Part shown: piece by piece, positions 2 to 38,826 of the stretch
Numbering within the stretch: position 1 is the stretch's first letter
How the letters are laid out: each line of letters starts with the position of its first letter
NCBI GenBank assembly: GCA_001586195.1
Contig: CP014609.1
Span: 346,001-410,000 of the forward strand
DNA: 64,000 bases
Direction: 5' to 3'
Source of the DNA: Solibacillus silvestris
GTDB lineage: Bacteria > Bacillota > Bacilli > Bacillales_A > Planococcaceae
Program-made: the position numbers and the translations under genes
The notes under the pieces: generated by a model
Seen by the model: only the letters and a program-made list of their open reading frames with translations
Databases searched by the model: none
What the model was told of the DNA's origin: nothing

Positions 2-3000
2 GCGCGTACAGCTATTCAAGTTTTAGACTTCTACGATATTACTAATCCATCAGTAGCTAACTTCAATCCAAAAGGTAACACTACTCGTGGTCAATTCGCT
101 ACATTCTTACACAAAACAATCAACTCTGACTTCGCTGGTGCTGCTGCAACAACAGGTACTGTTAAGGCAATTAACGCTACTACTGTTGAAGTAACATTTT
201 CAGATGCAGTTGATAATGTTAACGCTCTTAAATTCGCTATCGAAGGTCTTGAAGTAAAAAATGCTTCAGTTAAACAAACTGACGCTAAAACTGTAGTATT
301 AACTACTGCTGCTCAAGAAGCTAACAAAGAATATACAGTAACTCTTGATGGAGTTAAGCTTGGCACATTTAAAGGTGTTAATGCTGCAGTTCCTACAAAA
401 GTTACAATTAAAGATGTTGACGGCGACCGTTCACACCAAGGTGTTATCGGAAACGAAGTAACAGTTCGTGCAGAAGTTACTGTAGCTGATGGTCAATCTA
501 AAGCTGGTATCCCTGTAACATTCAACGTTGTTAACAACAACTCTAATACAAACGAAAAAATCGAAAAAGTTGCTTATACTGATGCAAATGGTGTAGCTAC
601 TTACTCTTATACTCGTTACTATGCATCAACTGATGATGTAACAGCTTATGCTACAAGCAAATCTTCTGTAAATTCAACTGCTAAAGTTTACTGGGCTAAT
701 GCTCATCAATTAACTATTAAAGATATTACAGAAAAAACAACAGTAACAAACGGAGATAACAAAGTTTATGAAATTAACTCTTCTAACTTCAAAAACGGTT
801 ATGTATTCGTAGCATTTACTGGTAACTTAGATGTAGCTCCAGATAAAATTGAAGATGGTGTAACTGTTGAAGGTAACTCAGTTCATCGTTTAAATTCAGA
901 TGGTGCACCTGTACTTGGAAAAATCGGTGGTAACTATCCATATAAATCAACTTTAGGTAACGAACAAGTTATTGCGGTTAAATTAGATGCAAACGGTAAA
1001 GCTAACTTAGTTGTATCAGGAACTAATGCATCAGCAAAACCTGTTGTATATGAAGGTAAACTAGTAGGAACTTCTCCTTCTAAAACAAATTTAGCTCACT
1101 ATGATGCAACTTACAGTGCAACAGCACTTCAAGCTCATGCTTCAGAAGTTAAATTTGATAAAGTAGTAAATTACGGCTTAACTATTAAAGCACAAGGTGT
1201 ACGTGATGCTGCTGTTTCTAATACAAACGGTACTGGTGGTCGTGATTATGAAATCGCTTATACTAAAGCAGATGGAAAACCTGTAGCAAAAGGTACTACA
1301 GTTTATGTAGCAATTCCAACTAAAGGTCTAAGTTCTGGTACTAACTTCCAATTATTAAATGAAGATGAAGAAACGGTTGGATTACAATCTGGTTTATCAA
1401 CTTCAGATTATAATGTCTATGCATTATCTACTGATAAAGATGGGAAAGTACTATTCACTGTTACTGCTAGAAATGCAGAAGACTATGTACAACCAATTGC
1501 GTTCTTAAACGACAACAAACCAACTGGTTCAACTTTCTTTGATAAAGATGATACACAAGCATCTGATGACGTAACATACTTCACGAATTCAGTAACATAC
1601 GCATCTAGTTTAGCTTTAGTGAATTCAACTGATAAGAAACAAACATCATTTGCTGCTGGACATGAAGCTGCAAAATTCTCTTATCGTTTAGTAGACCAAA
1701 ACGGTAAAGTACGTAAAGCAGATAAACAAACTCAAGTTACATTTAGTGTTTCTGCAGGTGAAGGTCAAATTACAGCAGGTAATGAAATTGTTCATCCACA
1801 CCAAACTAAGACAATTACAAGATCTTTAGAAGTTGGTCAAAGCAAAGTAGACCTTACAGTAAATGCACAAACACCAACTACAGTAAATGTATATGCTACT
1901 TCATCACAAGCAGGATTTACATTCTTACCTACTGAATCTCTTGTAGCAACATTTACAAATACTTCTATTGTAAATGTAAATGGTACTGTAACAAATGTTA
2001 ATAAAACTGACGGTATTGTAACAGTTAATGGTGTTCCATATAACTTAAATGGAGCAACATACCTAAACCAAGGTACTGCAGTACCTACATTAAGTGCATT
2101 CTATGATCACTTAACTGCAGGTAAATATGTTTCAATCACTAAAGATGCTGATGGAAAATTAGTATTTAATATTATTCAAGCTCCAGCTCCAACACCTACA
2201 TTAGTGACGAAGGCTGAAGTAACGGCTGATGATACAGTTAAAGTAACATTCTCAGGTGCAGTTAATGCTTCACCAACAGCTTCACAATTTGCTATTGACT
2301 TTAATGGAAATGGTACTATTGAATCGAATGAATATGCAACAGCAGCTTCTGGTTCAAGTACAGATTTAACATTAACATTTGCTACTGTTCACAATTTATC
2401 AACTTCAACTGTGACTGTACCAAACTTACAATATACACCAACAACAGCTGGAACATTACTTTCTGTTGCAAGTACTAATGTAACAACTGCATTTACAACT
2501 CCAGTAACAGTTGCGAAAGCTGCACATGGTGTTACTGTATCAACTACAAATACAGCTGGCGTAGCTGCAGAAGCTTTAACTAATACTTTATCAATTCCAA
2601 CTGGTAAAGTTGTAAATGCTGGTAATATGATTGTATCTTTACAAGCAGATAAAGCTGGTGTAACATCACCTATTAACGTTCCAGTTGCTGTAACATTATT
2701 AGATGATGAAAAAGCTGTTGCTTCTAAGATTGCAACAGAATTAAATAAATTAACTGCATTAACTTCTAAATTTACAATTGTTGCGGATGATGCTGATGTA
2801 GTTGTAACTGCAAAAGATATTGCTAATGAAGCTAATACTACTTTAGTAGTAGATATTGCGGATCAAACAGATGCTGCATATACTTCAATTTATACAGCTG
2901 ACTTTGATGGTATTACATCTGGTGTGACTGGATCATCAACTGCTGGTTCTATTGGTACTCTTGCTGTAACAAATGCAACATTCACTAATGTTACAGGTAC

Positions 3001-3244
3001 AGGTACAGTAGCTCCATTAAAAGTTAAAGTATTAACTACAGGTGGTTCTACTTTAGTAGATACTGATGTAACAGTTTCAGTACTAGCAGGTGAAACTGGG
3101 GCTCAAGTTGCAGCTAAAGTGAAAACTGCTTTAGAAGCAAATGCAACTATTGCTGCAAACTACACAGTAACAGTATCAGGTGCAATTGTGACTTTAACTA
3201 ATAAAGTCGCTGAAGTTCAAACTACAACAATTACTGTAGAATAA
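2..3244 (+). CDS. S-layer protein, 5' end outside window
   Basis: The frame is open from base 2 to the TAA at 3242-3244, so this is the 3' part of a longer gene. The first ~40 residues are the end of an SLH repeat (NFNPKGNTTRGQFATF), the domain that binds secondary cell-wall polymer. The remaining ~1040 residues are Thr/Val/Ala-rich beta-sandwich (Ig-like) sequence typical of the self-assembling part of S-layer proteins. Codon use is strongly biased to GCT/GCA, AAA and ACA/ACT, as in highly expressed S-layer genes. The sequence after AAGGCAATTAAC (163-174) is homologous to the SLH-less cassette at 32839-35757. A terminator follows at 3303. The TTG/GTG codon near 1619 is internal, not a start. 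Confidence 0.9.
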   Translation, partial: ARTAIQVLDFYDITNPSVANFNPKGNTTRGQFATFLHKTINSDFAGAAATTGTVKAINATTVEVTFSDAVDNVNALKFAIEGLEVKNASVKQTDAKTVVLTTAAQEANKEYTVTLDGVKLGTFKGVNAAVPTKVTIKDVDGDRSHQGVIGNEVTVRAEVTVADGQSKAGIPVTFNVVNNNSNTNEKIEKVAYTDANGVATYSYTRYYASTDDVTAYATSKSSVNSTAKVYWANAHQLTIKDITEKTTVTNGDNKVYEINSSNFKNGYVFVAFTGNLDVAPDKIEDGVTVEGNSVHRLNSDGAPVLGKIGGNYPYKSTLGNEQVIAVKLDANGKANLVVSGTNASAKPVVYEGKLVGTSPSKTNLAHYDATYSATALQAHASEVKFDKVVNYGLTIKAQGVRDAAVSNTNGTGGRDYEIAYTKADGKPVAKGTTVYVAIPTKGLSSGTNFQLLNEDEETVGLQSGLSTSDYNVYALSTDKDGKVLFTVTARNAEDYVQPIAFLNDNKPTGSTFFDKDDTQASDDVTYFTNSVTYASSLALVNSTDKKQTSFAAGHEAAKFSYRLVDQNGKVRKADKQTQVTFSVSAGEGQITAGNEIVHPHQTKTITRSLEVGQSKVDLTVNAQTPTTVNVYATSSQAGFTFLPTESLVATFTNTSIVNVNGTVTNVNKTDGIVTVNGVPYNLNGATYLNQGTAVPTLSAFYDHLTAGKYVSITKDADGKLVFNIIQAPAPTPTLVTKAEVTADDTVKVTFSGAVNASPTASQFAIDFNGNGTIESNEYATAASGSSTDLTLTFATVHNLSTSTVTVPNLQYTPTTAGTLLSVASTNVTTAFTTPVTVAKAAHGVTVSTTNTAGVAAEALTNTLSIPTGKVVNAGNMIVSLQADKAGVTSPINVPVAVTLLDDEKAVASKIATELNKLTALTSKFTIVADDADVVVTAKDIANEANTTLVVDIADQTDAAYTSIYTADFDGITSGVTGSSTAGSIGTLAVTNATFTNVTGTGTVAPLKVKVLTTGGSTLVDTDVTVSVLAGETGAQVAAKVKTALEANATIAANYTVTVSGAIVTLTNKVAEVQTTTITVE

Positions 3245-7293: not shown

Positions 7294-8271
7294 CTAAATT
7301 GCTTCTTGGATATACCAATTAAGACGAGGCTCTGTTATTTGTACTTTATCTAGATTAATAGGTAAGTTCTTCAAGTATTTGAACATATCTGCAATGGAAA
7401 CCTGTGGGTTGAACCATAAGTAATGAGATATTTCCTCTTCTGTTTTTGCATATGGTAATGTTTCTTGTATTGAATAGTTAATACTACATGTCCCCAGCCA
7501 TTCCTCGAAATACTGGACTTTTTGTTGATCTTTGTGATGCAAGTTAAGCGTTAGTGTAAACTCATTCAATTGAAGAGAGAAGAAACATTTTTGTTCATCT
7601 TGCATAATGCAACCTTGGATTTGACAAGTACTATCCTCAAAAGTATTGCTATTTTCCGCTTCATTAATCCAATTTCTTGTCACTGCAACGACATGCTTTT
7701 TTACTTCATCTAATTCATAAGGAGTTAGGCGATTGAATAAATCATTCTGTAACTCCTTTAACCAAACAGGGACTTTTTGATTTACGTAATCTTCATCACA
7801 GGATAATAGAGCATTCATCAGAAGTGTAATAGATTCTTGTGATGGTTTAGATGAATGCTCAGTTGAATAATTCGTTATTGGCTTTGGTTCTATTTTTGCT
7901 CCAACACCTGTTTCAACTACTACCTGTTGAAAGTTTTCCTTGTTTCCACTATCACGTAATTTTAATAAGGTATTCGGTTTTAATTTGAATAATTCTTCTA
8001 TTCTAAGCAAGAGATTGTCTGCACCCCCTTTGTGTCCTTGTTCAATTAACGCTATATAAGTTGAAGATATACCCAATTTTAATGAGAGTTCGCTTTGTGT
8101 AAGCTTTTGCTCTTTACGTAACTCTTTGATTTTATTGCCCATTTGGATATAGAGTTTTTCTTGTTTCGTAGATTTTTCTCCAACTGGTTTTAATCCTTTT
8201 TTGCTACTTGATACTGTTGGTTTGGTAACTTTGAATTCTTGAATTTTATTTCCTTTCTTAACTCGACTCAT
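7294..8271 (-). CDS. Xre-family transcriptional regulator with C-terminal extension
   Basis: I place the start at ATG 8269-8271 (325 aa), because AAGGAGG lies 9 bases upstream; the ATG at 8277 is only 3 bases from it. Residues ~40-100 form a helix-turn-helix of the Xre/Cro type (IKELRKEQKLTQSELSLKLG, then SSTYIALIEQGHKGG). A Lys/Ser-rich tail precedes it. The C-terminal ~200 residues are unrecognised and contain Cys pairs. It lies between a duplicated block and the recombinase cluster, in the opposite orientation to the recombinases, and may control either side. Its targets are unknown. Confidence 0.75.
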   Translation of the reverse strand: MSRVKKGNKIQEFKVTKPTVSSSKKGLKPVGEKSTKQEKLYIQMGNKIKELRKEQKLTQSELSLKLGISSTYIALIEQGHKGGADNLLLRIEELFKLKPNTLLKLRDSGNKENFQQVVVETGVGAKIEPKPITNYSTEHSSKPSQESITLLMNALLSCDEDYVNQKVPVWLKELQNDLFNRLTPYELDEVKKHVVAVTRNWINEAENSNTFEDSTCQIQGCIMQDEQKCFFSLQLNEFTLTLNLHHKDQQKVQYFEEWLGTCSINYSIQETLPYAKTEEEISHYLWFNPQVSIADMFKYLKNLPINLDKVQITEPRLNWYIQEAI

Positions 8272-8554
8272 TTTCATTCTCCTCCTTTATTATTCTCATT
8301 TATAACCAAATAGAGTCACCTTTATACAGAATATAGAATAAGAAAGTCGTTATTTTAGAATGATAGTATTCGAGATGCTTTCTACATTTATATAAAAAAT
8401 CCATCTGTCCGAGAGAAAAAGAAGATTTGATTCTGATAAATGCAACTACCTGATCTATGTATTGAACCCCGTTAGTGACATGCTCAATTTGTCGAAAGAG
8501 GACATCTCTAAAAAGATGTCCTTCATTTTGTATTGCAAATAATCAAGCCTTTCA

Positions 8555-8758: not shown

Positions 8759-8938
8759 AACAAACACCCCCTCAATCGTTTCTAAATTTATTATGGGAAC
8801 ATTTGTTCTTTTTATAACAAGTGAAATACAATTTTCTTTACTCTAAAAATCCATACTTGATTAGATTCTTCTATAAAACAATGTGATTTAACAGAACTTA
8901 AAAACTCCATCACATCCCTCTAAAAATTAGTATGAATT

Positions 8939-8970
8939 AAACCCTGATTTTTAGGGGTTTTTAACTTTTT
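8939..8970 (+). terminator. Terminator-like hairpin before the recombinase cluster
   Basis: AAACCCT and AGGGGTTT flank a short loop, followed by TTAACTTTTTTT. The stretch 8768-9128 holds this hairpin and the recombinase leader but no other gene. The leader (8980-9128) resembles 37100-37238 before the third A-type recombinase. Confidence 0.55.
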
Positions 8971-9128
8971 TTCTTTATTCACTTAGTAATAAGATGCACC
9001 TAAGAAGGAATGTTTTTCAAGAGAGTTATTACAAATAAATCTAAAAACATGTATAAGAACGGAAAAAACAGTTAACGATGGTAGTAAGAAACGAAAAGGT
9101 AAAAAAAGTAAAAGAAGGATAGTGACAC

Positions 9129-10025
9129 ATGGAATATCAGGAAACGAAATACTGGGTTAGTACTCATGAAACAATTCCAGCACAAACAAAAAAGATATTA
9201 AATGAGTACTTGCTAAGTTTGAAATTAGCAAATAAGGCAGAATCGACAATTTCAAGATACCGTACCTTCTTAGAACGGTTTTTTGTTGAGTATGAAGTTG
9301 AATTGGATACGCTCACCTCTAAAGAGGTATTGGAATGGGTGAACAATTACTCGGAAGGTAAAAAGGAATCAACCGTGATTATTGCGCTTTCTATTTTGAC
9401 TTCATTTTTTAACTTTTGTCTCGCCGAAGATTATTTAGATAAAATGGTGATGAAAAAACGATGGGGACCGAAAGCACCGCAACCTTTGCCCAAATTCTTG
9501 ACAGAACAAGAATATGCGAGTGTGAAAATGGCTGCGGAATTGTTGCCTCTCAGAGATCGGGCAATTGTTCTGTTTCTATTCTCTTCTGGCTGTCGAAGGT
9601 CGGAAGTTGCTCAATTGTTAATTGAAGATGTGGATTTAAAGAGACGAACTGCAGTCGTTCAAGGGAAAGGGAAAAAATTTAGGAAGGTACATTTTTCAGA
9701 GGAATGTGCACTCATTATAAACGAGTATTTAGAGGCGAGATCTGCTGATGGAAAAGAACCGTTATTTATGACCAAATATGGTCTGCCACTTCAACAAAGC
9801 GGTATCTACAAAATCACAACGAAACTTGGAAGATTAGCTGGTCTGAAGCAAACATTGCATCCACACTGTTGCCGGCATACCTTTGCGACGAATATGTTAG
9901 CCAGAGGAGCAGAACTGGAATTTATCGCAGATGAAATGGGGCATACCAACCTGAATACGACACGTGTTTATGCCCGCATACCTACAGAGGATATTATGTT
10001 AGCTTATCAAAATATAATGGGGTAG
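9129..10025 (+). CDS. Tyrosine recombinase A1 (XerC/D-like integrase)
   Basis: A 298-residue site-specific recombinase. It has a core-binding (SAM-like) domain at ~20-105 (LNEYLLSLKLANKAESTISR) and a catalytic domain at ~120-298. The expected residues are all visible: R156 in SSGCRRSEV, H246 and R249 in HPHCCRH, H272 in GHTN, and nucleophile Y281 in RVYAR. The ribosome site AAGGATAG precedes ATG 9129. B1 starts 6 bases after its stop, so A1 and B1 should be translated together. It is very close to A3 at 37239. Paired recombinases usually act as a heteromeric complex; the substrate sites here are unknown. Confidence 0.93.
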   Translation: MEYQETKYWVSTHETIPAQTKKILNEYLLSLKLANKAESTISRYRTFLERFFVEYEVELDTLTSKEVLEWVNNYSEGKKESTVIIALSILTSFFNFCLAEDYLDKMVMKKRWGPKAPQPLPKFLTEQEYASVKMAAELLPLRDRAIVLFLFSSGCRRSEVAQLLIEDVDLKRRTAVVQGKGKKFRKVHFSEECALIINEYLEARSADGKEPLFMTKYGLPLQQSGIYKITTKLGRLAGLKQTLHPHCCRHTFATNMLARGAELEFIADEMGHTNLNTTRVYARIPTEDIMLAYQNIMG

Positions 10026-10031
10026 ATAACT

Positions 10032-10865
10032 ATGAATAGTGAAGTTCAACAAGCTTTCTTTAATGATCATCATGCTAAATTTAGTGCCGAAACAACGCGA
10101 GGTTACCGTATTGCGCTTACTCAGTTTTTTGCATCTTGCGAGAAAGATTATGCACAGGTGAAAGCGACAGACATACGAGCGTGGCTTTCTGCTTTGGAAG
10201 AAAAAGGACTGAAACCAAAATCGATTCATTTGAAGCTGGCTGCATTAAAATCGTTTTATAACTATTGCATGGAAGAAAGTTTAGTGAAGAAAAATCCGAC
10301 GTTAACTGTCAATACACCAAAAATTGATGATTCGCTTCCTTATTATTTAAGTAAACGAGAACTGGCCTTACTACAAGAATTAACGCGACAAAAACCTCGA
10401 GACCGCGCAATCGTGGAGGCGTTATATGCGACGGGTGTTCGTATTAGTGAACTATTGCAAATTAAGTTGGAGGATGTGAAATGGGATACAAGGCAAATTT
10501 GGATACGAAAAGGAAAAGGGAATAAGGAACGCTTTGTCCTCTTTTCACATGACTGTGCGGTACGCTTGAAAACGTATCTGGATCAGAGAGAAAAAGAAAG
10601 TGATTATCTATTTTCTAACCATCGGGGTGGCCCGTTAAGTCGTGTGTTTGTGGAACAACAATTCCGGCAATTTTCTGAAGAGCTTGGATTTAAGGTGAGA
10701 CCCCATACGATGCGCCATACGTTTGCGGCTCATTTAGCAGAAAAGGGAATGAAATTCACCTATATACAGGATCTATTAGGTCATTCAAATATTAATAGCA
10801 CCAGAATATATACAAGATTGATGGATCATACTCGGAAAAAACAGTACGACCAATATCAAGTTTAA
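10032..10865 (+). CDS. Tyrosine recombinase B1 (XerC/D-like integrase)
   Basis: 277 residues, with a core-binding domain at ~1-95 and a catalytic domain at ~105-277. The catalytic set is R137 (ATGVRISE), H225 and R228 (HTMRHTF), H251 (LLGHSN) and Y260 (RIYTR). It is the second gene of the first A-B pair, 6 bases after A1. It resembles B2 at 12840 more than the A-type proteins, so the cluster looks like a duplicated two-gene unit. The 119-base gap to A2 carries the A2 leader. Confidence 0.92.
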   Translation: MNSEVQQAFFNDHHAKFSAETTRGYRIALTQFFASCEKDYAQVKATDIRAWLSALEEKGLKPKSIHLKLAALKSFYNYCMEESLVKKNPTLTVNTPKIDDSLPYYLSKRELALLQELTRQKPRDRAIVEALYATGVRISELLQIKLEDVKWDTRQIWIRKGKGNKERFVLFSHDCAVRLKTYLDQREKESDYLFSNHRGGPLSRVFVEQQFRQFSEELGFKVRPHTMRHTFAAHLAEKGMKFTYIQDLLGHSNINSTRIYTRLMDHTRKKQYDQYQV

Positions 10866-10951
10866 AAGAAATAGGTATTAAGAGGAAAACCCAATTTTGA
10901 GTGAATTTTAAGATTAATCACGTGCAACTAATTTAGAGAAAGGGTGACAAC

Positions 10952-12835
10952 ATAGAGAATTATTGGGAAGTCAAGGAAGCGTTTTTGAATCAGAAAAACC
11001 ATATGGTAGTGAATGAATATCTTTTAAGCTTGAAAAATGCAAATAATAAGGAAAGTACTATAAGCGTACACAGATGTAGATTGCAGTTCTTTTTTAAATG
11101 TAGGAAAGAGGAATTTACAGAAATTACACGGGAGGATATTCAAAAATGGTTAAAAAAGTTACAAGAGGATTTGAAGGACCGTACCGTACAAGTAAATGTT
11201 GCATCCTTACGAGCCTTTTATAATTTTTGTATGAAAATGGAATATATAGAAACATCCCCTGTAATGGAGATAAAAAAGCGAATATACAATAAAGAATATT
11301 GGGTATTGATGAAAACTTTACCGAACGAGGAAAATCAAACTGTTGTGAACGAATATCTGAAAGATATGAAGGACTCGGGTAAAAATGTGGGTAGTATTAT
11401 TTCCCTGCGTACAAAGTTACAGCGTTTTTTCATTGCAGTTAAGAAACCGTACTTTTCAATAACAGCACAGGATATTGATCAATGGATTGATAAACATCGA
11501 GACAAATGGTCTACTACCACTGTTCACAACTATTACTATGTGGTCCGCTCTTTTTTTAGCTTCTGTGAGGAAAAGGATTACATTGAAACCATGCCGACTA
11601 AAAAAACTCGTTGGGTGGGTAAGACGGAAAAGTATTGGGAAATACAGCAACCAATTGCCAATCTTGAGAATCGGGAAGTACTAAATGAATTTCTTTTGTA
11701 TTTAAAAGAAGAAGGATATACAAAAAAAACAATTGAAGTTACCCGCAGTACGCTGCAACTTTTTTTTCGAAAAAGACTAGAAAGATTCTCTTTTATTACT
11801 ACGGAAGAAATCTACCTTTGGGGAAATTTAAATGTTTCTAGGAAAACAATCAGCAGGTATATTAGCTATATCCGTTCCTTCTATCGATTTTGTGTTCGGA
11901 AAGGATATATGGAAAAATCGCCTGTCATCTACCATTGGGCTTGGAAAGCAACGGGAAAGAACTATTGGGTATTATCGAAACCATTAGTAAACGTAAGGAA
12001 TCAAGAAGTGATTAATGAGTTTTTGTTGAGTATGAAAGTGTACAATCTTAGTGAAGGTACGATTAGGAGTTACTGCAATTTTCTAAGTAGATTTTTTCAT
12101 GAAAAAGAAGAATCATTTGAAACGTTGACATCAGATTGTATCCTCACATGGCTTATCCAGTACCAAAATGAATGGAAAGCTCGAACAATCCGTAATTATT
12201 TAAGTATGCTCAGCTCTTTTTATCGTTTTTGTGTAGAAGAAGAATATATGGAAAAATCACCGATCAAGATGCAATGGTTTCCCCGTATACCAAAATCAAT
12301 TCCAAAATACTTGGAAAAACCAGAGGTAGCAAAAGTCCTTCAAGTAATTGAAAGCGAAAATATTCGAAACCGTGCAATCGTTGAACTTTTCCTTGCGACT
12401 GGTTGTCGGGTTGGAGAAGTACATCAACTGGATAAGGCGCATATTGATTTTGAAAATCGAACGGCTACCGTCACAGGGAAAGGGAAAAAAATCCGCAAGG
12501 TTCACTTTACAGAAAAGTGTTCGTTGATTTTAGAAAGGTATCTCGCTACTAGGAAAGACCAACAGCCTTATTTATTCGTTACGCAAGGGGAAACCCGGCT
12601 TGGCACAGCCTCTATTCGTAAGATTGTTGGAAGGATAGGGAGAACGGCCAAGCTAATTAGACCTCTTCATCCACACCGGTTTAGACACACATTTGCAACT
12701 GAATTATTATCTAAGGGAGCCAACCTGTCGTTTATCGCGGACGAATTGGGACATAAGAATTTAAAGGTTACTCAAACTTACGCAACTTACACGAAACAAG
12801 AGATACTCACCATGTATCGTAAATATATGGGATAG
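10952..12835 (+). CDS. Tyrosine recombinase A2 with four tandem core-binding domains
   Basis: About 627 residues, roughly double the usual length. Counting from the TTG at 10985, four core-binding units begin with NEY/NEF motifs near residues 10, 122, 234 and 344 (period 110-112). Three linker copies read KEYWVL, EKYWEI and KNYWVL, and each unit ends in F(C) plus Y(I/M)E(T/K)SP. One catalytic domain follows at ~440-616 with R475, H564, R567, H590 and Y599. I place the start at 10952 because AAAGGGTGA precedes it as in A1 and A3 and the frame there encodes ENYWEV, matching the linkers; that codon is ATA, not ATG. TTG 10985 lacks a good ribosome site. B2 begins 5 bases after the stop. Confidence 0.88.
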   Translation: MENYWEVKEAFLNQKNHMVVNEYLLSLKNANNKESTISVHRCRLQFFFKCRKEEFTEITREDIQKWLKKLQEDLKDRTVQVNVASLRAFYNFCMKMEYIETSPVMEIKKRIYNKEYWVLMKTLPNEENQTVVNEYLKDMKDSGKNVGSIISLRTKLQRFFIAVKKPYFSITAQDIDQWIDKHRDKWSTTTVHNYYYVVRSFFSFCEEKDYIETMPTKKTRWVGKTEKYWEIQQPIANLENREVLNEFLLYLKEEGYTKKTIEVTRSTLQLFFRKRLERFSFITTEEIYLWGNLNVSRKTISRYISYIRSFYRFCVRKGYMEKSPVIYHWAWKATGKNYWVLSKPLVNVRNQEVINEFLLSMKVYNLSEGTIRSYCNFLSRFFHEKEESFETLTSDCILTWLIQYQNEWKARTIRNYLSMLSSFYRFCVEEEYMEKSPIKMQWFPRIPKSIPKYLEKPEVAKVLQVIESENIRNRAIVELFLATGCRVGEVHQLDKAHIDFENRTATVTGKGKKIRKVHFTEKCSLILERYLATRKDQQPYLFVTQGETRLGTASIRKIVGRIGRTAKLIRPLHPHRFRHTFATELLSKGANLSFIADELGHKNLKVTQTYATYTKQEILTMYRKYMG

Positions 12836-12839: not shown

Positions 12840-13685
12840 GTGAAAGAAATTAACAGTGAAGCTTGTATCGAACGGTTCCAAATAGAATATAGATTACGCT
12901 TGGAAGCAAAAACAATGAAGGCTTATATTTATAGCCTTACCATATTTTTTGAATTTGTAAAAGTAGAGCCTACTCGAGTATCAAAGAAGGATATCCGAAA
13001 TTGGCTATTATATTTATCGGAGTCTGGTTATAAAACGAGTACGATATGTAGTTATTTAATTGCTTTGAAGACCTTTTTTAAATTTTGTTTGGAAGAGAAC
13101 TATTTAAATAAAAATCCTGCAAAAGAGATTCCCTATCCGAAACGAGAAGATAAAATGCCAGCTTATTTAAGCAATGGGCAAATGGCTCTTTTCAGGAAAC
13201 TTGTTAAAGGAAATGTAATGGAAAGGGCATTAATTGAGGTACTTTTTGCTACAGGCGTAAGAAGAGGCGAGTTAATGGCAATGAAAAAGAAAGATATCAA
13301 TTGGGAAGAAAAAAGTATCTTTATTTCAGATGGAAAAGGAAAAAAAGAACGTATTGTTCCATTTAGCCGGAACTGCGCGGTATATTTGTCAGCCTATCTT
13401 GAAAGTAGAATAGATGATTTGCCATATGTCTTTGTGAATAGCAGATTGAAACGACCGCTGTACGGACAAATAATAAATACGCGGTTTCAATATTATTCTA
13501 GCCAATTGGGGTTCCGAGTAACCCCCCACATGTTGCGGCATACCTTTGCCACACATTTGGTAAAGATGGGAATGCCCTATGAAATGGTTCAGAAACTTTT
13601 AGGTCATGATAATCCGAAAACAACGCAAATATATACACGATTTTTTGATGAGTTCCAAAAGGAAGAGTATGATCAATGGATGTAA
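12840..13685 (+). CDS. Tyrosine recombinase B2 (XerC/D-like integrase)
   Basis: 281 residues from GTG 12840; GGAAGG overlaps the A2 stop, so it is probably translationally coupled to A2. The core-binding domain spans ~1-98 and the catalytic domain ~107-281, with R141 (ATGVRRGE), H230 and R233 (HMLRHTF), H256 (LLGHDN) and Y265 (QIYTR). 3' fragments of close relatives are scattered at 15950, 20980 and 26730. This suggests that B-type genes have repeatedly been the edge of rearrangements in this region. Confidence 0.92.
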   Translation: MKEINSEACIERFQIEYRLRLEAKTMKAYIYSLTIFFEFVKVEPTRVSKKDIRNWLLYLSESGYKTSTICSYLIALKTFFKFCLEENYLNKNPAKEIPYPKREDKMPAYLSNGQMALFRKLVKGNVMERALIEVLFATGVRRGELMAMKKKDINWEEKSIFISDGKGKKERIVPFSRNCAVYLSAYLESRIDDLPYVFVNSRLKRPLYGQIINTRFQYYSSQLGFRVTPHMLRHTFATHLVKMGMPYEMVQKLLGHDNPKTTQIYTRFFDEFQKEEYDQWM

Positions 13686-14097
13686 AAGAATGGGTTTTAA
13701 AAACAGGAGAAAATCAAGTATTCCATAAAATTTTTGTCAGCCATAACAGACACAGTTGTCTGGTTCATCCCAGGGTGTGTGGATTGAAATTACTTGGCAA
13801 GTTACAATAATTAACGCATTAATAAATGCGTTTTTGCGCGGAAAAATACGGGGATTCGCTATTTAAGCGATTCTTTTTTGTTTTAAAACCCCTCCAATAC
13901 TCATAAAAACAAAATACATCAGAAAGATGCTTTTTTTGAGGTATACCGAGGGACGTAATTTAATGCTATATAGTGTTACATGGATATATATGTTATATAT
14001 TTCCCGTTTACCCCGAATAATTATTGTTACTAACCTCATATATTATAAGGGGAATTTTATACCATTAATCTTAAATGAAAAGGAGTTGTTTTAAGTT
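13686..14097. other. Intergenic region with two small hairpins and one CRISPR-like repeat
   Basis: Two terminator-like hairpins are visible: AACGCATTAATAAATGCGTT with a T tail (about 13819-13840) and TCGCTATTTAAGCGA followed by TTCTTTTTTG (about 13855-13883). Bases 13758-13790 end in GTGTGGATTGAAAT, which resembles the 3' part of a type I-C CRISPR repeat. There is only one copy. I see no gene. Confidence 0.5.
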
Positions 14098-15621
14098 ATG
14101 AATGAGTATTTATACCGTGATGTTTATTCGATTAAATCAGATTTAGAAGACATGCTTAACAATTCGAATAACATTTTAAGCAACACAACAAGTATGATGC
14201 AATCACTAAATCGTTTTGAATCATTAATGAATAAAGGATTTAGCGGATTACAATCACAGTTAATTGATATCTCTTACCAATTAGAAGATATACTAGATGT
14301 CATGATTGATTTTAGAAATATGACATTCATTCAAAACGAAGAGAGAAATCAACTTCTAGCGAGTATTGACGCAACACTAAAAGCACCGAATAAAACAGCG
14401 GCACATGAGAAATACGAAATCGCCTTAGAACTAGCTGATAAAAACAAGCCTGACACAGCAATTCAATTTTTAAAAAAAGCCATTGAGTTGAACCCGCTAC
14501 ATTTTCGAGTTTACATTCAACTAACTCTGAATCTATTGAAGACAAAAAATTATAAGGAAGCACTTTATTATGCGAAGGAAAGCATTAACTTTGCCCCGAA
14601 TAATAACGAAATACTTGCATATACGTATTCTTTAGCGGCGCGCGCGTCAGAAAAATTAAAAAACTTTCAAGGAGCTCTAAATTATATTAATCAAGCTGCT
14701 AAATTAAATAATCAGTCAAGCTACATTTATGAAAAGGCTAGATATTTAGTTAAATTAGATGACATTAGTGAATCGATGAAAGAACTAAAAAAGGCAATCG
14801 AGATGAATAGTGAGTATTTTGCGATTTCTCTTGTAGATTCCGTCTTTCTTCCGTGTCGAAATGAGCAAGAACAACTTCTGATGTCATTAAAGGAAGAACT
14901 AGAATCAAAATTAAATTACGCAATTACGCAAATGGAAACAATTCAGTTACATAATTATAACTTTGATAACGAACGAGATACCACCGAGCGATTTCGTTAT
15001 CCAGAATTTCCAAGTTACGAAGTTGAAAAAGCCGGTGTTGTACCTAAACAAAAGGATGTAACTATTGTTTGTTATTGGGATAAGAACGGAAAAGAAGAAT
15101 CTATAAAGAAATATTGTTATAAAGAGGTATTCTGGTTTTTTGATTTTTACTATAATCAATTATCTAAATTACATCATAACAAACTACCATTGGTTAAAGA
15201 ATTGAAAAAACAAAATACGTATATTTCGTACAGAAAATCTGAAATTGAGTTCCTTTCATACAAAGAAGAGTACAATTATCTCATTATTAATTTTAAAAGG
15301 TTTTTAAAAAATACAAAAGAAGCCGCTACACTCGCAAAGGAGGTCTTTATAGAAAATCTTGAAAGTGTAAAAGAAAACAGAAATAAACTGGATGATTTGC
15401 TTTTTAAAGACAGCATGAAGAGGTTGATTCCTTTCTATAGTTGGTTTTCTAAAACAGGGAGTAATGATGAGTGGAATGATAAGGAGAAGGCTTCTAAATT
15501 ATTGAGAGCGTTCGTACAAAATTCTGAGTATGTTATTCGACAAGAAGAGAAACATACGGCAGCCATTAATAATTTATTAAAAAAAGTAAACGAAAGACCA
15601 CTACCGGATACTATAAAATAA
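14098..15621 (+). CDS. TPR-repeat protein with N-terminal coiled coil
   Basis: 507 residues from ATG 14098, with AAAGGAG about 10 bases upstream. The N-terminal ~100 residues are a hydrophilic coiled coil. Residues ~105-240 hold three or four tetratricopeptide repeats (DTAIQFLKKAIELNP, KEALYYAKESINFAPN, QGALNYINQAAKLNN, ESMKELKKAIEMN), which normally mediate protein contacts. The C-terminal half is unrecognised, with a Trp/Phe/Tyr patch near residue 345. There is no signal peptide, so it is cytoplasmic. It lies just after the recombinase cluster and could be cargo; its function is unknown. Confidence 0.7.
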   Translation: MNEYLYRDVYSIKSDLEDMLNNSNNILSNTTSMMQSLNRFESLMNKGFSGLQSQLIDISYQLEDILDVMIDFRNMTFIQNEERNQLLASIDATLKAPNKTAAHEKYEIALELADKNKPDTAIQFLKKAIELNPLHFRVYIQLTLNLLKTKNYKEALYYAKESINFAPNNNEILAYTYSLAARASEKLKNFQGALNYINQAAKLNNQSSYIYEKARYLVKLDDISESMKELKKAIEMNSEYFAISLVDSVFLPCRNEQEQLLMSLKEELESKLNYAITQMETIQLHNYNFDNERDTTERFRYPEFPSYEVEKAGVVPKQKDVTIVCYWDKNGKEESIKKYCYKEVFWFFDFYYNQLSKLHHNKLPLVKELKKQNTYISYRKSEIEFLSYKEEYNYLIINFKRFLKNTKEAATLAKEVFIENLESVKENRNKLDDLLFKDSMKRLIPFYSWFSKTGSNDEWNDKEKASKLLRAFVQNSEYVIRQEEKHTAAINNLLKKVNERPLPDTIK

Positions 15622-15707
15622 TAATATTCTTACAGAATTTAACGAAGAAAAATTAAAGTAAATCATAAAAAAAAACGCGTTTTAAAAATAGAATCAGTGT
15701 AAATCAT

Positions 15708-15760
15708 ATGGAACTCAAAAATTTGAATTTATAGGACTTAAATTTTTGAGTTTCAATAGA
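15708..15760 (+). terminator. Inverted repeat behind the TPR gene
   Basis: AACTCAAAAATTT and AAATTTTTGAGTT form a 13-bp stem around a ~17-base loop. It is followed by a weaker T-rich region. It is a likely terminator for the TPR gene. A second inverted repeat (CTAATGTTC / GAACATTAG, about 15804-15838) follows. Confidence 0.5.
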
Positions 15761-15949
15761 GGGGGTCTAATCAAGCACAATTAGACTCTTTTAGTAGCCT
15801 AAACTAATGTTCACAAAATTCTATTTCTGGAACATTAGTGATAGAATCCTAGATATATATGCGTTCTTGTTATTTAACACGTACATACGATCCCGTCTCA
15901 CGGGACTAGTAGATAAAGAGCTTAGAAGATGAGCAGATATCGCACGTAA

Positions 15950-16158
15950 ATGAGCGGTTTCAATATTATTCTAGCCAATTGGGGTTCCAAGTAACCCCCC
16001 ACATGCTGCGCCATAGCTTTGCCACACATTTGGTGAAGAGAGGAATACCCTATGAAATGATTCAGCAACTTTTAGGTCATGACTATCCGAAAACAACCCA
16101 AATATATACGCGATTTTTTGAACAGTTACAAAAGGAAGAGTATGACCAATGGATGTAA
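15950..16158 (+). pseudogene. 3' fragment of a B-type tyrosine recombinase
   Basis: The sequence is nearly identical to the last ~200 bases of B2 and encodes [26 protein letters not shown] and the final YDQWM before TAA. The 5' two-thirds of the gene and the start are missing. The block from here to about 16335 is repeated at about 20990-21418, including the hairpin behind it. Confidence 0.8.
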
Positions 16159-16271
16159 AGAAAGGATGTTGAGGTTATAAAAAATAAAGCTTCATTACTT
16201 TAGAATAAGGGTAATTTTTATTTCCAGGTGCAATTAAGCAGTTGTTTGCTTAGTTTATTTTGTTAAAAAAA

Positions 16272-20979: not shown

Positions 20980-21243
20980 ACAAGGGGTGTTTGTGAATAG
21001 CAGACTGAATTGACCGCTGTACCGACAAAGATTAAACGAGCGGATCCAATATTATTCAAGCCAATTGGGGTTCCAAGTAACTCCCTATATGTTGCGCCAT
21101 ACCTTTGCCACACATTTGGTAAAGAGGGGAATGCCCTATGAAATGATTCAGCAACTTTTAGGTCATGATGATCCGAAAACAACCAAAATATATACGCGTT
21201 TTTTTGAACAGTTACAAAAGGAAGAGTATGATCAATGGATTTA
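20980..21243 (+). pseudogene. 3' fragment of a B-type tyrosine recombinase, second copy
   Basis: This matches the end of B2 (FVNSRL..., [38 protein letters not shown]), but it has an in-frame stop (GAATTGACC region) and no start. Together with the DNA to about 21418 it duplicates 15950-16335. The opposite-strand frame here is a shadow. Confidence 0.8.
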
Positions 21244-21352
21244 GACAAATGATTTTAGATAAAAATAAAGCTTCAGGATTCTCAGAATAAGGGTAGTTTT
21301 TTTCGATTGGATGCAGTTAAGCAGTTGTGTGCTTAGTTGAGTTGTAAAAAAA

Positions 21353-32597: not shown

Positions 32598-32762
32598 GAA
32601 TTTTTGGATCCTCTTTTAAGCGCTGCGCTCGACGAAGTGTATTGTCTATGTCCTTTAAGAAATTGAATTTCCGCTCATTTGTCGTATTTAAGTAAAGGCT
32701 GGTTGCTTCTATGGAAGTATGTCCTAATAGGTCGCGTAAGAGAATATTAACTATACTAACAC
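32598..32762 (-). pseudogene. 3' fragment of another tyrosine recombinase
   Basis: Read on the minus strand it gives VSIVNILLRDLLGHTSIEAT and SLYLNTTNERK, the His/Tyr end of an integrase catalytic domain, then RAQRLKEDPKIQ and a stop. The rest of the gene is missing. It ends just before the silent S-layer cassette, so a further, different recombinase once lay at this border. Confidence 0.65.
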
Positions 32763-32777
32763 CTCGTTTGTGTAAAT

Positions 32778-32820
32778 GCCCGAAACCTTGATATCAAAGG
32801 GATTTGGGCTTTTTTTGTTG
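32778..32820 (+). terminator. Terminator immediately before the silent S-layer cassette
   Basis: GCCCGAAACC and GGGATTTGGGC pair around TTGATATCAAA and are followed by TTTTTTT. It lies ~15 bases upstream of the cassette and should block read-through into it. Confidence 0.65.
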
Positions 32821-32832: not shown

Positions 32833-35757
32833 ATGAAAAAGGCAATTAACAATACTACAGTTGAAGTAACATTTGGTGAAGAAGTTGCTGACATTAAAGC
32901 ATTAGACTTCAAAATCGAAGGATTAGAAGTATCTAACGCTGTAGTGAAGCAAACTGACAAAAAGACTGTTGTATTAACAACTGCTGCTCAAAAAGCAGGC
33001 ACTGAATATACAGTATCTGTAAATGGTAACGCTGTAGGTAAATTCACAGGAGTTTCTGCTGTAATTCCAACTGCTATTAAAGTAGTAGAACGCTCACAAC
33101 AAGGTGTTCTTGGTCAACAAGTAACAGTTAAAGCTGAAGTTACTGTTGCAGAAGGACAATCTAAAGCAGGTATTCCAGTAACATTTAACGTTACTTCTGG
33201 TACAAATACTTCATTAAATGCTCCTGAAGTAATTGAAGCAAATACAGATGCAAACGGTGTTGCAACATTTACTTATACTCGTTATGCAAACACAACTGAT
33301 GATGTTGTAGCTTATGCAACTGGTGACCGTACTAAGTTCCAAGCTGGTAAAGTTTACTGGGCAGCTGCTAAACAATTAACAGTTAAAGATATCACTGAAG
33401 CAACTACTTTAGTAAATGGTTCTAAGAAAGTTTACGAGATTAATCAACCAAACAACGCTGGTGGTTATGTATTCGTTGCATTCCAAGAAAATCTAAATGT
33501 TACTCCAGATAAAGCAGTTCGTGGAGCAATCATTGAAGGTGTTACAACTTATGGAATCAATGGTAACACTACAGCTAACATTATTACTTCAACTGCTAAC
33601 ACTTACCCACAATCATTATCAACAGGTGGTACTACAGTAACTGCTGTTAAACTTGATTCAGCTGGTAAAGCAAACTTAGTAGTTTCTGGTAGCAATGCAG
33701 CTGTTACGCCAATCGTATATTCTGCTGAATACAAAACAGATGTTAACAATAACTTAACATACGTTCCAGCGTATTCTGCAACAGCATTACAAGCAGCAGC
33801 TTCAACTGCTAAGTTTGAATTAAAACATACATTAGGCTTAACTATTAAAGCTGAAGGTGTTCAAAATGCAGCAACTTGGGTAAATGATGTTCAAACTGGT
33901 GGACGTGACTACACAGTTACTTACACAGACAAAGATGGTAAAGCAGCTGCACCTGGCACTTTAGTTAAAATCGCAATTCCACGTGTAGGTGGAGCTATCA
34001 GTGTATTAAATTCTGATGGAGATGCGGTTGCATCAATCGGATCAGATGCTTCAAACTACTATTATCAATTACCAGTTGAAGCTAAAGGTGAACTAACTTT
34101 CACAGTAGTTTCTACTAGCACTTCTGCATATGTTTCTCCAATCGTATTTATCGACAATGGTAAAACGACAGGTGTAAATGTATTAGATACAGATGATTTA
34201 CAAGCTCAAGGTGAGGTTACTTACTTTGTATCAACTGTTAACTACAGTGCAGCACTTAAAGCTTTAGATGCACCAAATGGTAAACCAGTAACTTCTGTAG
34301 TATATGGCGGTACACCAGCATACTTCACTTACGAATTAGTTGACCAAAATGGTAAACCACGAGCTTATAATCAAGATACAGTAGTATCATTTGAATTAAG
34401 AGCAGGAACTGGTGACATCAATGTAGATGGTACTGTTATTAAAGCAGGAAATACTGGAACAGTACGTAACACAATTACAGCAGGTAATACTTCGACAAGT
34501 GTAAAAGCTTATGCTTACACTCCATCTGCTATAACTGCAAATGCAACGGGTTCTCGTTCAGGTGTTGTATTACCGTCTACAAACCCAGCATCAGTAACGG
34601 TTAACTTTACTCAATATGGTACTACAGCTATCACTGGTACTGCTGTAAGTGTTGACACAGTATTAGATGTATTAACAATCAACAATGTATTATATAGCTA
34701 TGCTGATGCTTCATACAGATATAATAACAGTGCTATTACAAAAGCTGCATTTGAAAACTACATCAAAGCTAATAATGCAACAGTTTCTGTAACTGCAGAT
34801 GCTGATGGAAAATTAACATTTAATGTTATTGGTGTTACTTCTACTACTGACGTTGTAGCTGCAGTTAACAATGCTCAATCTGCTACAGATGTTCAAAATG
34901 CATTAAAAGATTACCCATTATTCAAAAAGCTTACTGCTGGTGACCAAGCAACTGTAGCAGGAAAAATCTTTACTTCTGTTCAAACTGCTCCGGTAACAGC
35001 TGCTGCTATTAATGCAGCAATTGAACCTCATATTGTTATCAGTAATACTGCAGCTTATACTGTTGGTACTGCAGCAGTTACTGGTGCTAAAGCAACTGGA
35101 GTTCATGCAAACGCTACAACATCTACTAACACATTAACAATCGAATCAGCGGCTGGAGAAGTTGCTTACAATGGTGTTAAAGTAGTATTTGAAAAAGCTA
35201 CTACAGTGGGAACTGCTGTAACTACATCTTATGACACAAATACTAAAACATTAAAAGTAACATTACCGGTAAGTGATGCTGTAAATGGTACACTTGACGC
35301 AGCTGCAACATTAGCTGCAGTAGATACTGCAATTGAAGCTGACACTTCAACAGCCTTAACAGTTGATCTTGCTGGATTTGCAGGTACTGAATCTGCTGAA
35401 GAATTAGTTGGAAAAACTATTACATTAAAAGGTGCTACTGCATCAGCAGCTGCAGTTAATGGAAAGTTAACACTAACATTCTCTGAAGCTATTACAGCAT
35501 TAACAGATGTAACTCTAAATGATAGTGGTGCAACAACTATTACACCAGCAGCAGGAGCTAAATCACTTTCTGCTGATGGTAAAACTCTTGTAATTACTTT
35601 AACAGCTCCTGAAGAAACAGCGGTTGCAGCAGCAACAACTATTACAGGAATTACTGCAACACCTAAGGTTCCAGGTCAACCATTCAAAGTAAATGGTTAT
35701 ACTGCAGCTGATGGTTCTACAGTAGTACCGGCTGCACCAGTAACTATTTCTAAATAA
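32833..35757 (+). CDS. Silent S-layer cassette lacking signal peptide and SLH domains
   Basis: The open frame gives ~975 residues of S-layer Ig-like sequence ending in TAA 35757. The frame upstream of 32833 is only read-through of the terminator. There is no signal peptide, no SLH domain, no ribosome site, and a terminator lies directly in front, so it is probably not expressed where it is. From AAGGCAATTAAC (32839-32850) it is homologous to the left-hand S-layer gene from 163 on (VEVTFxxxV, IEGLEV, VYWA, GRDYTVTY), with diverged middle parts. Its last ~700 bases are almost repeated at 38113-38826. Codon bias is that of a highly expressed S-layer gene, suggesting it is or recently was used as a donor. 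Confidence 0.85.
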   Translation: MKKAINNTTVEVTFGEEVADIKALDFKIEGLEVSNAVVKQTDKKTVVLTTAAQKAGTEYTVSVNGNAVGKFTGVSAVIPTAIKVVERSQQGVLGQQVTVKAEVTVAEGQSKAGIPVTFNVTSGTNTSLNAPEVIEANTDANGVATFTYTRYANTTDDVVAYATGDRTKFQAGKVYWAAAKQLTVKDITEATTLVNGSKKVYEINQPNNAGGYVFVAFQENLNVTPDKAVRGAIIEGVTTYGINGNTTANIITSTANTYPQSLSTGGTTVTAVKLDSAGKANLVVSGSNAAVTPIVYSAEYKTDVNNNLTYVPAYSATALQAAASTAKFELKHTLGLTIKAEGVQNAATWVNDVQTGGRDYTVTYTDKDGKAAAPGTLVKIAIPRVGGAISVLNSDGDAVASIGSDASNYYYQLPVEAKGELTFTVVSTSTSAYVSPIVFIDNGKTTGVNVLDTDDLQAQGEVTYFVSTVNYSAALKALDAPNGKPVTSVVYGGTPAYFTYELVDQNGKPRAYNQDTVVSFELRAGTGDINVDGTVIKAGNTGTVRNTITAGNTSTSVKAYAYTPSAITANATGSRSGVVLPSTNPASVTVNFTQYGTTAITGTAVSVDTVLDVLTINNVLYSYADASYRYNNSAITKAAFENYIKANNATVSVTADADGKLTFNVIGVTSTTDVVAAVNNAQSATDVQNALKDYPLFKKLTAGDQATVAGKIFTSVQTAPVTAAAINAAIEPHIVISNTAAYTVGTAAVTGAKATGVHANATTSTNTLTIESAAGEVAYNGVKVVFEKATTVGTAVTTSYDTNTKTLKVTLPVSDAVNGTLDAAATLAAVDTAIEADTSTALTVDLAGFAGTESAEELVGKTITLKGATASAAAVNGKLTLTFSEAITALTDVTLNDSGATTITPAAGAKSLSADGKTLVITLTAPEETAVAAATTITGITATPKVPGQPFKVNGYTAADGSTVVPAAPVTISK

Positions 35758-37238: not shown

Positions 37239-38159
37239 TTGACCGATCATACAAGGAAATATTGGATTAGCAATCACGAGGGAATTCTTAAACAAACGAG
37301 ATTGATATTAAATGAATACTTACTAAGTTTAAAATTAGCGAATAAAGCGGAATCAACGATTTTAAGATACCGTACCTTCTTAGAACGGTTTTTCAACGAG
37401 TATTTAGTTGAATTGGATAGGCTAACGTCTGAAGATGTATTGGAGTGGGTGAACAAATATTCGGTAGGGAAAAAGGAATCAACAGTGATTATTGCACTTT
37501 CTATTTTAACTTCTTTTTTTAACTTTTGTCTCGCGGAAGATTATTTAGATAAAATGTTGATGAAAAAAAGATGGGGACCTAAAGCATCACAGCCCTTGCC
37601 TAAGTTTCTCACAGACCAAGAGTATGCCCGTGTAAAATTAGCAGCGGAACAGTTATCACTCAGAGATCGGGCAATTGTCTTGTTTCTATTTACATCGGGT
37701 TGCCGCCGTTCCGAAGTAGCGAACTTATTAATTCAAGATGTGGATGTAAAACAACGAACAGCAGAAGTGAGAGGGAAAGGAAACAAGATTAGAAAGGTTC
37801 ATTTTTCGGTGGAGTGTGCTCTGGTTTTAAAAGAGTACTTGTGTACAAGATCAAGTGAGGAAACAGAACCCTTATTTTTAAACAAACATGGGGAGAAACT
37901 CCAACAAAGTGGTATCTATAAAATAACGACGAAACTTGGGAGATTAGCAGATTTAGACCACTCATTGCATCCGCATTGTTGTCGACATACTTTTGCAACG
38001 AATATGTTAGCAAAAGGGGCAGAACTGGAATTTATCGCAGATGAAATGGGTCATACGAACCTGAATACGACCCGTGTTTATGCTCGTATCCTAATACAAC
38101 ATATTGTCCGAGATACTGCAGCTTATACTGCAGGTACTGGAGCAGTTACAAGGTGCTAA
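37239..38159 (+). CDS. Tyrosine recombinase A3 with its C-terminus replaced by S-layer DNA
   Basis: TTG start at 37239 with AAAGGATGG upstream, as in A1. Residues 1-284 match A1 closely: core-binding domain ~20-105, catalytic R156, H246, R249, H272, Y281. After VYARI the sequence switches to LIQHIVRDTAAYTAGTGAVT and stops at 38159. The DNA after about 38095 is S-layer sequence read in another frame. The last ~14 residues of A1, which normally help lock neighbouring subunits together, are missing, so the protein may be inactive or altered. No B partner follows. Confidence 0.85.
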   Translation: MTDHTRKYWISNHEGILKQTRLILNEYLLSLKLANKAESTILRYRTFLERFFNEYLVELDRLTSEDVLEWVNKYSVGKKESTVIIALSILTSFFNFCLAEDYLDKMLMKKRWGPKASQPLPKFLTDQEYARVKLAAEQLSLRDRAIVLFLFTSGCRRSEVANLLIQDVDVKQRTAEVRGKGNKIRKVHFSVECALVLKEYLCTRSSEETEPLFLNKHGEKLQQSGIYKITTKLGRLADLDHSLHPHCCRHTFATNMLAKGAELEFIADEMGHTNLNTTRVYARILIQHIVRDTAAYTAGTGAVTRC

Positions 38160-38826
38160 AGCAACTGGAGTTTATACAAACGCTACAACATCTGCAAACA
38201 AATTAACAATTGAGTCAGCAGCTGGAGAAGTTGCTTACAATGGTGTTAAAGTAGTATTTGAAAGAGCTACTACAATTGGTGATACAGTAACTACATCTTA
38301 TGATGCAGCTACTAAAACATTAAAAGTAACATTACCAGTAAGTGATGCTGTAAATGGTACACTTGACGCTGCTGCAACATTAGCTGCAGTAGAAACTGCA
38401 ATTGAAGCTGATACTTCAACAGCCTTAACTGCTAGTCTTGCTGGATTTGAAGGAACTGAATCTGCTGAAGAGTTAGTTGGAAAAACTATTACATTAACAG
38501 GTGCAACTGCTTCAGCAGCTGTTGTTAATGGAAAGTTAACACTAACATTCTCTGAAGCTATTACAGCATTTACAGATTTAACTCTAAATAATGTTGGTAC
38601 AACAACTATTACACCAGAAGCAGGGGCTAAATCACTTTCTGCTGATGGTAAAACTCTTGTAATTACTTTAACAGCTGATGAAGAAGCAGCGGTTTCAGCA
38701 GCAACAACTGTTACAGGAATTACTGCAACACCTAAAGTTGTAGGTCAACCATTCAAAGTAAATGGTTATACTGCAGCTAACGGTGAAACTGTTGTAGCTC
38801 CTGCACCAGTAACTATTTCTAAATAA
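38104..38826 (+). pseudogene. S-layer 3' fragment fused behind recombinase A3
   Basis: It is nearly identical to 35041-35757 of the silent cassette and encodes the last ~235 residues (ESAAGEVAYNGVKVVFE, VTLPVSDAVNGTLDAAATL, ITGITATPKV, PAPVTISK, TAA). It has no start or ribosome site of its own; the frame overlaps the end of A3 by 56 bases in a different frame. It is followed by the family 1 terminator. Confidence 0.85.

Follow-up and report, generated by a model that had tools for sequence, protein, structure and literature searches.

What is a tyrosine recombinase with four tandem core-binding (CB) units for, and what does it do among surface-layer (S-layer) genes? The question is raised by one gene, here called C, in the 64,000-nucleotide stretch of DNA that we analysed as a whole and refer to as the window. 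The answer we favour, with a probability of about 0.7, is that C and its three neighbours A, B and D make up one recombination machine of an integrative, S-layer-converting element that is able to act as a reversible coat switch.

The open frame of gene C was confirmed at 10952-12835 on the plus strand. It codes for a tyrosine recombinase of the Xer type in which four tandem CB units precede a single complete catalytic domain, as a sequence-only reading of the locus had proposed. The codon at 10952 is ATA, with no ATG, GTG or TTG there, and is preceded by the ribosome-site-like AAAGGGTG. The first usual in-frame start is the TTG at 10985, which gives a protein of 616 aa, and C may start at either codon. 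By eye, the G009 homologue of C (72% identical) has KGGNVE where the window has KGDNIE, so a valine-codon start is possible in G009.

The units were traced in three ways. A unit HMM, made from C's own units and gene A so that its E-values are partly self-matches, found four non-overlapping units of about 105-110 residues each. The profile search with core-binding families that the sequence-only reading had suggested gave CB-type matches in several stretches, with PF02899 at E 1.2e-30 (5 stretches pass E 1, a threshold at which one of them may be weak) and PF13495 at 6.4e-23. AlphaFold2, run with an alignment of 9 sequences and 5 models (mean pLDDT 78.5, pTM 0.33), predicted a four-helix bundle for each unit (H14-95, H126-207, H238-316 and H348-429), mostly with pLDDT >80, and then the catalytic fold. 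Units 1-3 are thus predicted to have CB-type folds, a point on which that reading had staked its claim, and the pTM of 0.33 leaves the placement of the units relative to one another undefined. With the whole model as query, Foldseek ranked XerA, XerC-like, XerD, XerH and integrase structures highest, with poor superpositions (TM-score by query 0.19-0.24 among the best 50 rows), a result to be expected where the domains have no fixed relative position. The residue pattern that had been described for the units holds with some slack, as NE[YF]L, F[YF]xFC and Y[IM]E[TK]xP, and not to the letter, since unit 2 has TMP for TSP. The three YW-containing linkers are present, and a fourth YW lies at the N-terminus of C (ENYW).

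The catalytic part is a single Phage_integrase domain (Pfam: PF00589) at residues 453-616 with E 1.5e-37. Residues R486, K510, H575, R578, H601 and Y610, which we take to be the catalytic ones, are invariant across 9 aligned sequences. With R-K-H-R-H and the tyrosine in this domain C belongs with the Simple (Xer-type) tyrosine recombinases, and with four CB units it departs from their architecture of one CB plus one catalytic domain. It scores below the NCBIfam equivalog cut-offs of XerC and XerD, with 254.0 (cut-off 335.15) and 227.8 (329.6), and passes NF040815 (recomb_XerA_Arch) with 268.5 against a cut-off of 220.

Table 1. Features of the locus, in positions of the window.
Feature	Position	Strand	Remark
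SLH-anchored S-layer gene, variable from the core on	2..3244	+	Frame begins left of the window, G000:345450
attL-type core AAGGCAATTAAC	164..175	+	Where anchor and variable region of the S-layer gene meet
Gene A, tyrosine recombinase, one CB unit, 298 aa	9129..10025	+	Phage_integrase domain
Gene B, tyrosine recombinase, one CB unit, 277 aa	10032..10865	+	Phage_integrase domain
Gene C, tyrosine recombinase, four CB units	10952..12835	+	Start ATA 10952 or TTG 10985
C, CB unit 1	10958..11287	+	Approx. residues 3-112; unit HMM, AlphaFold2
C, CB unit 2	11291..11626	+	Approx. residues 114-225; unit HMM, AlphaFold2
C, CB unit 3	11636..11962	+	Approx. residues 229-337; unit HMM, AlphaFold2
C, CB unit 4	11969..12286	+	Approx. 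residues 340-445; unit HMM, AlphaFold2
C, catalytic domain	12287..12832	+	Phage_integrase match; invariant residues
Gene D, tyrosine recombinase, one CB unit, 281 aa	12840..13685	+	Phage_integrase domain
Remnant, second D 3' end	15901..16170	+	
Remnant, third D 3' end	20987..21256	+	
Hairpin/terminator, conserved inside ACCTTGATATCAAAGGG	32779..32816	+	Proposed right end of the element
Displaced S-layer variable region without SLH; frame open for 972 aa from the core	32839..35757	+	Whole frame 32776-35757
attR-type core AAGGCAATTAAC	32839..32850	+	Direct repeat of 164-175
Second A-type recombinase; 3' end runs into S-layer fragment	37239..38159	+	Likely remnant of another element
S-layer C-terminal fragment	38104..38826	+	86% identical to the end of the displaced region

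C is the third gene of an operon of four adjacent tyrosine recombinases, A-B-C-D, all of which have the catalytic domain. Among 261 genomes of the family, with one genome per species and the genome of the window labelled G000, C finds matches at E <= 1e-70 in 16, and the quartet is complete in all 16; G243 and G262 have two quartets each. A scan of genome contigs kept 80 loci, 16 of which (L070-L085) are quartets, 6 of these lying outside the family set. Together with the second copies in G243 and G262 this gives 24 quartets, all in Bacillales, with Sporosarcina, Lysinibacillus, Ureibacillus, Jeotgalibacillus, Lederbergia, Metabacillus, Gracilibacillus and Tenuibacillus as the named genera. 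A class-wide sample of 398 genomes had C matches at E <= 1e-70 only in G000 and G017. C has one unit in 8 of the 24 quartets, three in 3, four in 11 and five in 2. Relatives with other unit numbers, which the sequence-only reading had called for, therefore exist, and together with purifying selection on each unit (see below) they rule out a one-off artefact.

No record among 72,556 plasmids or 50,697 phages has 80% of C in one place, and a search of viral contigs with two short peptide patterns returned 26 distant loci, none matching before residue 356 of C. Further recombinase genes were seen near some quartets, one between B and C in G287 (region position 39845-40795) and one directly after D in Gracilibacillus (L081 13553-14731). 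Another adjacent recombinase pair is found in G259 (region 8825-11866), with open frames of 375 and 638 aa, sizes that recall TnpA and TnpB of Tn554. A deltaproteobacterial MAG has a 481-aa recombinase frame with two unit matches that adjoins another recombinase (L143 10917-12359).

We built a tree of 96 catalytic domains and three outgroup rows, for which the program gave a long-branch warning. In it the sequences of A, of B, of C and of D are each set apart from all others by one branch (support 93, 98, 98 and 86, respectively). A stands beside C and B beside D, both with support 99, and these paralogous pairs suggest a XerC/XerD-like division of labour in duplicate. On the tree of the concatenated quartets (24 rows) the unit number of C changes at least five times. 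The AU test rejects as one clade the two Lysinibacillus quartets (p 2.1e-7), the two Lederbergia quartets (9.1e-4) and the 13 quartets of genus g3, which is Sporosarcina where named (8.7e-72); transfer between hosts or old duplicated lineages would explain these rejections. We also counted changes of host genus as a sign of mobility and set the count aside, since 9 changes against the least possible 8 for 9 labels is too weak on its own.

The quartets share their neighbourhood as well as their gene order. S-layer regions were recognised by a protein motif of our own with a composition filter, so that broken or diverged regions can be missed. Downstream of the quartet, an open S-layer region lacking the SLH domain was found in 12 of 24 cases (G000, G084, G277, G304, G259, G287, G256, G017, G254, G170, G241 and Lederbergia citri). 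Ten of these start within about 2.5 kb of D, the others at 11 kb (G084) and 19 kb (G000). Three more quartets (G009, G286 and Tenuibacillus) are followed by an attR-type site, as defined below, and a broken region. No S-layer region was recognised just downstream of seven quartets with flanks of about 3 kb or more (G243a, G243b, G261, Jeotgalibacillus, Metabacillus litoralis, Lederbergia lenta and Gracilibacillus); the next S-layer region of G243a lies 17 kb on, before the second quartet, and was left out of the count. For the remaining two (G262a and G262b) the contig ends just downstream.

On the upstream side, nine of the 24 quartets have an anchored S-layer gene carrying the core described below (G000, G304, G259, G287, G256, G170, G241, G261 and G262b), three have an attR-type region, and for 12 no S-layer region was recognised in the flanks examined. 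The quartet of G009 is far from the intact S-layer gene. The upstream genes of G000 (E 1.6e-16, first 183 aa) and G304 (E 4e-21) carry the SLH domain (Pfam: PF00395) and are thus SLH-anchored S-layer genes, and the upstream frames with a core in G259 and G241 have no SLH domain and another N-terminal part. PF00395 was not found in the three downstream regions tested (window, G304 and G256). The downstream frame of the window is 46% identical over 684 aa to the lattice part of the upstream S-layer protein. Three further S-layer-type genes with SLH domains stand in a row to the right of the element, at 56474-64000 of the window.

Upstream and downstream sites have a 12-bp core in common, with a consensus near ARKGCGATTAAC that codes for S/K-A-I-N. 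The upstream core (attL-type) lies just after the anchor part of the S-layer gene, and the downstream core (attR-type) opens the long anchor-less S-layer frame. Eight attL/attR pairs from the same genome were compared, one of them with a second S-layer gene of G259. Their mean identity is at chance level to the left of the core (0.28), 0.86 in the core and 0.75 to its right. The values for 152 pairs between genomes are 0.28, 0.74 and 0.57, so the contrast within the core, 0.86 versus 0.74, is modest. Core-led S-layer sequence is inverted in G277 (13229-15964, minus strand, region positions) and a core is inverted in G287 (59081, minus strand, region position); inversion as well as excision could be possible there.

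To the left of the attR-type cores lies a hairpin followed by T's, whose inside (AACCCTTGRTAYNNNAAGGGTTT) is conserved across genera and whose outer stem varies. Its distance from the core is 52-56 bp in 17 of 18 attR sites when two mismatches are allowed (53 and 55 in G286 and Tenuibacillus), three of the 18 having been located via the hairpin itself; at the 18th site, in G017, a diverged hairpin that the regular expression missed is visible by eye. Leaving out those three sites and allowing one mismatch, the hairpin motif is found 40-60 bp left of 12 of 15 attR cores, of none of 10 attL cores and of 84 of 20,000 random positions. The combined pattern of hairpin and core has 17 matches in 16 of the 261 genomes, and a reversed control pattern has none. 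Raw matches occur in 10 of 16 quartet genomes versus 6 of 245 others, and sites that are hairpin-like by eye in 9 of 16 versus 3 of 245 (Fisher p about 1.7e-10 in each case), a p-value that is not an independent test because these sites themselves served to write the pattern and the genomes are relatives of one another. The attR-type site is rare in genomes without the quartet, and the attR-like sites in three of them (G008, G159 and G257) are read as remnants. Just before the right-end hairpin of G009 there is an antisense stretch resembling a recombinase C-terminus, LGHNQRKTTEIYLES, and by eye a similar one is present on the minus strand of the window at about 32640-32760.

What would recombination between the two cores produce? 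The cores are direct repeats in all seven genomes that have both on one piece, 8.1-32.7 kb apart, with the 8.1 kb belonging to the compact element of Ureibacillus chungkukjangi KACC 16626, and all seven pairs are in one codon phase, so that recombination would swap the S-layer part in frame and bring in a lattice part of 819-972 aa. The agreement in phase is partly built in, as the regions were recognised by a protein motif that the core encodes, and the core is short (12 bp). The predicted joined S-layer frames, whose length is not built in beyond a 150-codon filter, have 1049-1205 aa compared to 1019-1259 aa at present.

Displaced regions also have relatives elsewhere that are fused to an anchor. 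The displaced region of G256 matches S-layer frames in 15 of the 261 genomes including itself, 12 of them quartet-free, and 14 of 17 other matching rows start at the first residue of the displaced region. We opened seven matching loci, five of them from quartet-free genomes. All seven have three SLH domains, and a core at the junction, 257-298 aa into the frame, is present in six (four of the five quartet-free ones), which indicates that such a region normally serves as the lattice part of an S-layer protein. For the displaced region of G304 there was no match but itself in the 261 genomes at E <= 1e-60. Within the genus of the window, each of the five quartet-free genomes that we opened retains an S-layer gene (1122-1251 aa), and in four of them left-flank DNA is shared with the window's genome. 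The near relative G008 keeps an open S-layer gene and has 92.7% DNA identity over 7.1 kb of the left flank; the exact empty site was not found there, as the right flank differs.

The quartet and its conservation, the paired direct cores in one phase, the hairpin and the anchor-fused relatives of the displaced type are the observed basis of the following model. The element would extend from a core through a new S-layer variable region and A-B-C-D, with cargo in some hosts, to the hairpin-terminator before the next core. Recombination of the element core with the core of an S-layer gene, catalysed by A-D, would integrate it between the anchor and lattice parts. At attL the anchor, the core and the new lattice part would be joined in frame, and attR would consist of the hairpin, the core and the old lattice part. 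The latter, pushed downstream behind the terminator and lacking an anchor, would presumably be silent, the hairpin insulating it from transcription. The conserved inside of the hairpin and its spacing suggest that it may also be bound by the recombinases, and all four proteins might build the synaptic complex. Recombination between both cores would then excise the element and restore the old coat, so that the element could act as a reversible switch.

An ordinary integrative element, attaching at S-layer genes and supplying a substitute 3' part, would explain the structural evidence just as well; the coat change would then be a by-product. Many prophages keep their target tRNA genes working by carrying such a substitute 3' part, and the TPR, LRAT-like and HTH genes between the window's cores have the look of cargo. 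The carried part, however, does not restore the same protein as a copy would: in the window it is only about 40-46% identical to the displaced part, which means that the coat does change, and we regard the by-product account as possible, on the doubtful side. PADLOC, run on 10 window proteins in search of defence cargo, matched one, with HTH-type models only.

Alternatively, an immobile chromosomal quartet might shuffle stored lattice regions behind one anchor, like Xer1/Vpma. The stored regions are indeed long open frames (12 of about 650-1031 aa), the inverted sequence in G277 and the inverted site in G287 would suit such a resident switch, and so would the several quartets or attR sites within one genome (G243 and G262). 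What makes it unlikely is the patchy occurrence of the quartet (16 of 261 genomes), host genera that do not form clades on the tree of quartets, the S-layer genes without a quartet in the genus of the window (four of the five opened sharing left-flank DNA with the window's genome) and attR ends whose hairpin at fixed spacing resembles the end of an element.

A narrower doubt concerns C itself, whose tandem units might be neutral duplications without function. C proteins with a single unit are found in quartets of the same kind (8 of 24), so such a quartet does not require the extra units. Against neutrality, dN/dS of each CB unit of C is 0.09-0.39 in the four genome pairs tested, well below 1, which indicates that the extra units are kept, and forms with four units are maintained in several genera; we find neutral duplication improbable. 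The sequence-only reading had supposed that repeated units could let one subunit grip a longer or multi-site DNA target, or sense several recombination sites at once. The hairpin-core spacing is 52-56 bp whether C has 1, 3, 4 or 5 units, with no relation between the two, and the idea of a longer grip gains no support at that point. Our guess is that the extra units might give C further contacts, either within the synapse or with the S-layer coding flank. C proteins with 1, 3, 4 and 5 CB units form a natural series that is ready for probing their role.

One could also suppose that S-layer regions are simply rich in insertions and that the quartet has nothing to do with the broken S-layer genes. 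In favour of this are the IS copies and gene remnants at the window's locus, the numerous SLH genes in these regions and the 9 of 24 quartets with no recognised downstream S-layer region (2 owing to a contig end). It is nevertheless very hard to believe, given that the hairpin-core unit is missing at attL cores and seldom found elsewhere, that its spacing is fixed and that all 7 pairs of cores are directly repeated.

Returning to the S-layer-converting element, its copy in the window may be decayed, as the cores are 32.7 kb apart with IS copies and remnants between them. There are three copies of the D 3' end (13428-13697, 15901-16170 and 20987-21256), and the second and third have in common the stretch that follows them, which contains a terminator-like inverted repeat. 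These two look like decayed earlier elements, and the locus was probably hit more than once. An HTH protein is encoded on the minus strand at 7294-8277, and DNA 82% identical to this stretch is found beside the intact S-layer gene of G009, away from the quartet; the HTH gene is perhaps part of the element. The protein encoded at 16648-18159 looks secreted; it has a bacterial Ig domain, and its PPC domains correspond to three tandem 402-bp repeats.

Change of the coat by means of silent S-layer genes is familiar from Geobacillus stearothermophilus, Campylobacter fetus and the slpA/slpB genes of Lactobacillus, and we know of no four-recombinase operon described for these systems. The cassette-like order, with the newest part next to the expression site and older parts behind it, resembles that of integrons, but C scores far below the integron integrase model (TIGR02249: 76.6 versus a cut-off of 265) and is thus not an IntI-type integrase.

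RIT elements have a trio of recombinases, and the two sequential CB domains of RitA show that a tandem arrangement as such is already known (PMC8138268). RitA is the nearest precedent for the tandem units of C. In both systems several simple tyrosine recombinases are encoded next to one another and one of them has tandem CB domains (PMC8138268), whereas here there are four instead of three, C has up to five units and there is a link to the S-layer. The 24 loci have four recombinases in the order A-B-C-D and not the RitA, RitB and RitC genes, and the part of the RIT literature covered makes no mention of a RitA with 3-5 CB units (PMC8138268).

GInts (ginABCD) have three integrases and a small helix-loop-helix protein (PMC5385486). 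They share with our quartet an integrative island, a four-gene operon, imperfect direct repeats at the ends and a 3' end region (PMC5385486). They differ in that all four genes A-D are recombinases, with no small helix-loop-helix gene among them, and that the element here would supply part of a host gene. In Mycoplasma agalactiae the site-specific recombinase Xer1, encoded beside the Vpma surface-protein locus, switches surface proteins (PMC2268961). That system works with one recombinase, inversions and lipoproteins, unlike a four-recombinase integrative element. Our literature search, mostly without subscription papers, found no description of a four-recombinase S-layer system. We lean towards the view that this is an undescribed class of integrative element, with four co-evolved recombinases, one of them bearing a variable array of 1-5 CB domains, that targets the anchor/lattice junction, rewrites the outer coat upon insertion and keeps the former coat as a recoverable silent cassette.

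If this is true, there is a mobile element that edits one of the major surface proteins of its host, and does so at a fixed boundary between protein domains. This would offer a mechanism for S-layer diversity among Bacillales. With the quartet one could also test why several different recombinases are needed by some integrative elements. Rewriting of the coat could furthermore change phage receptors and protect the host of the element.
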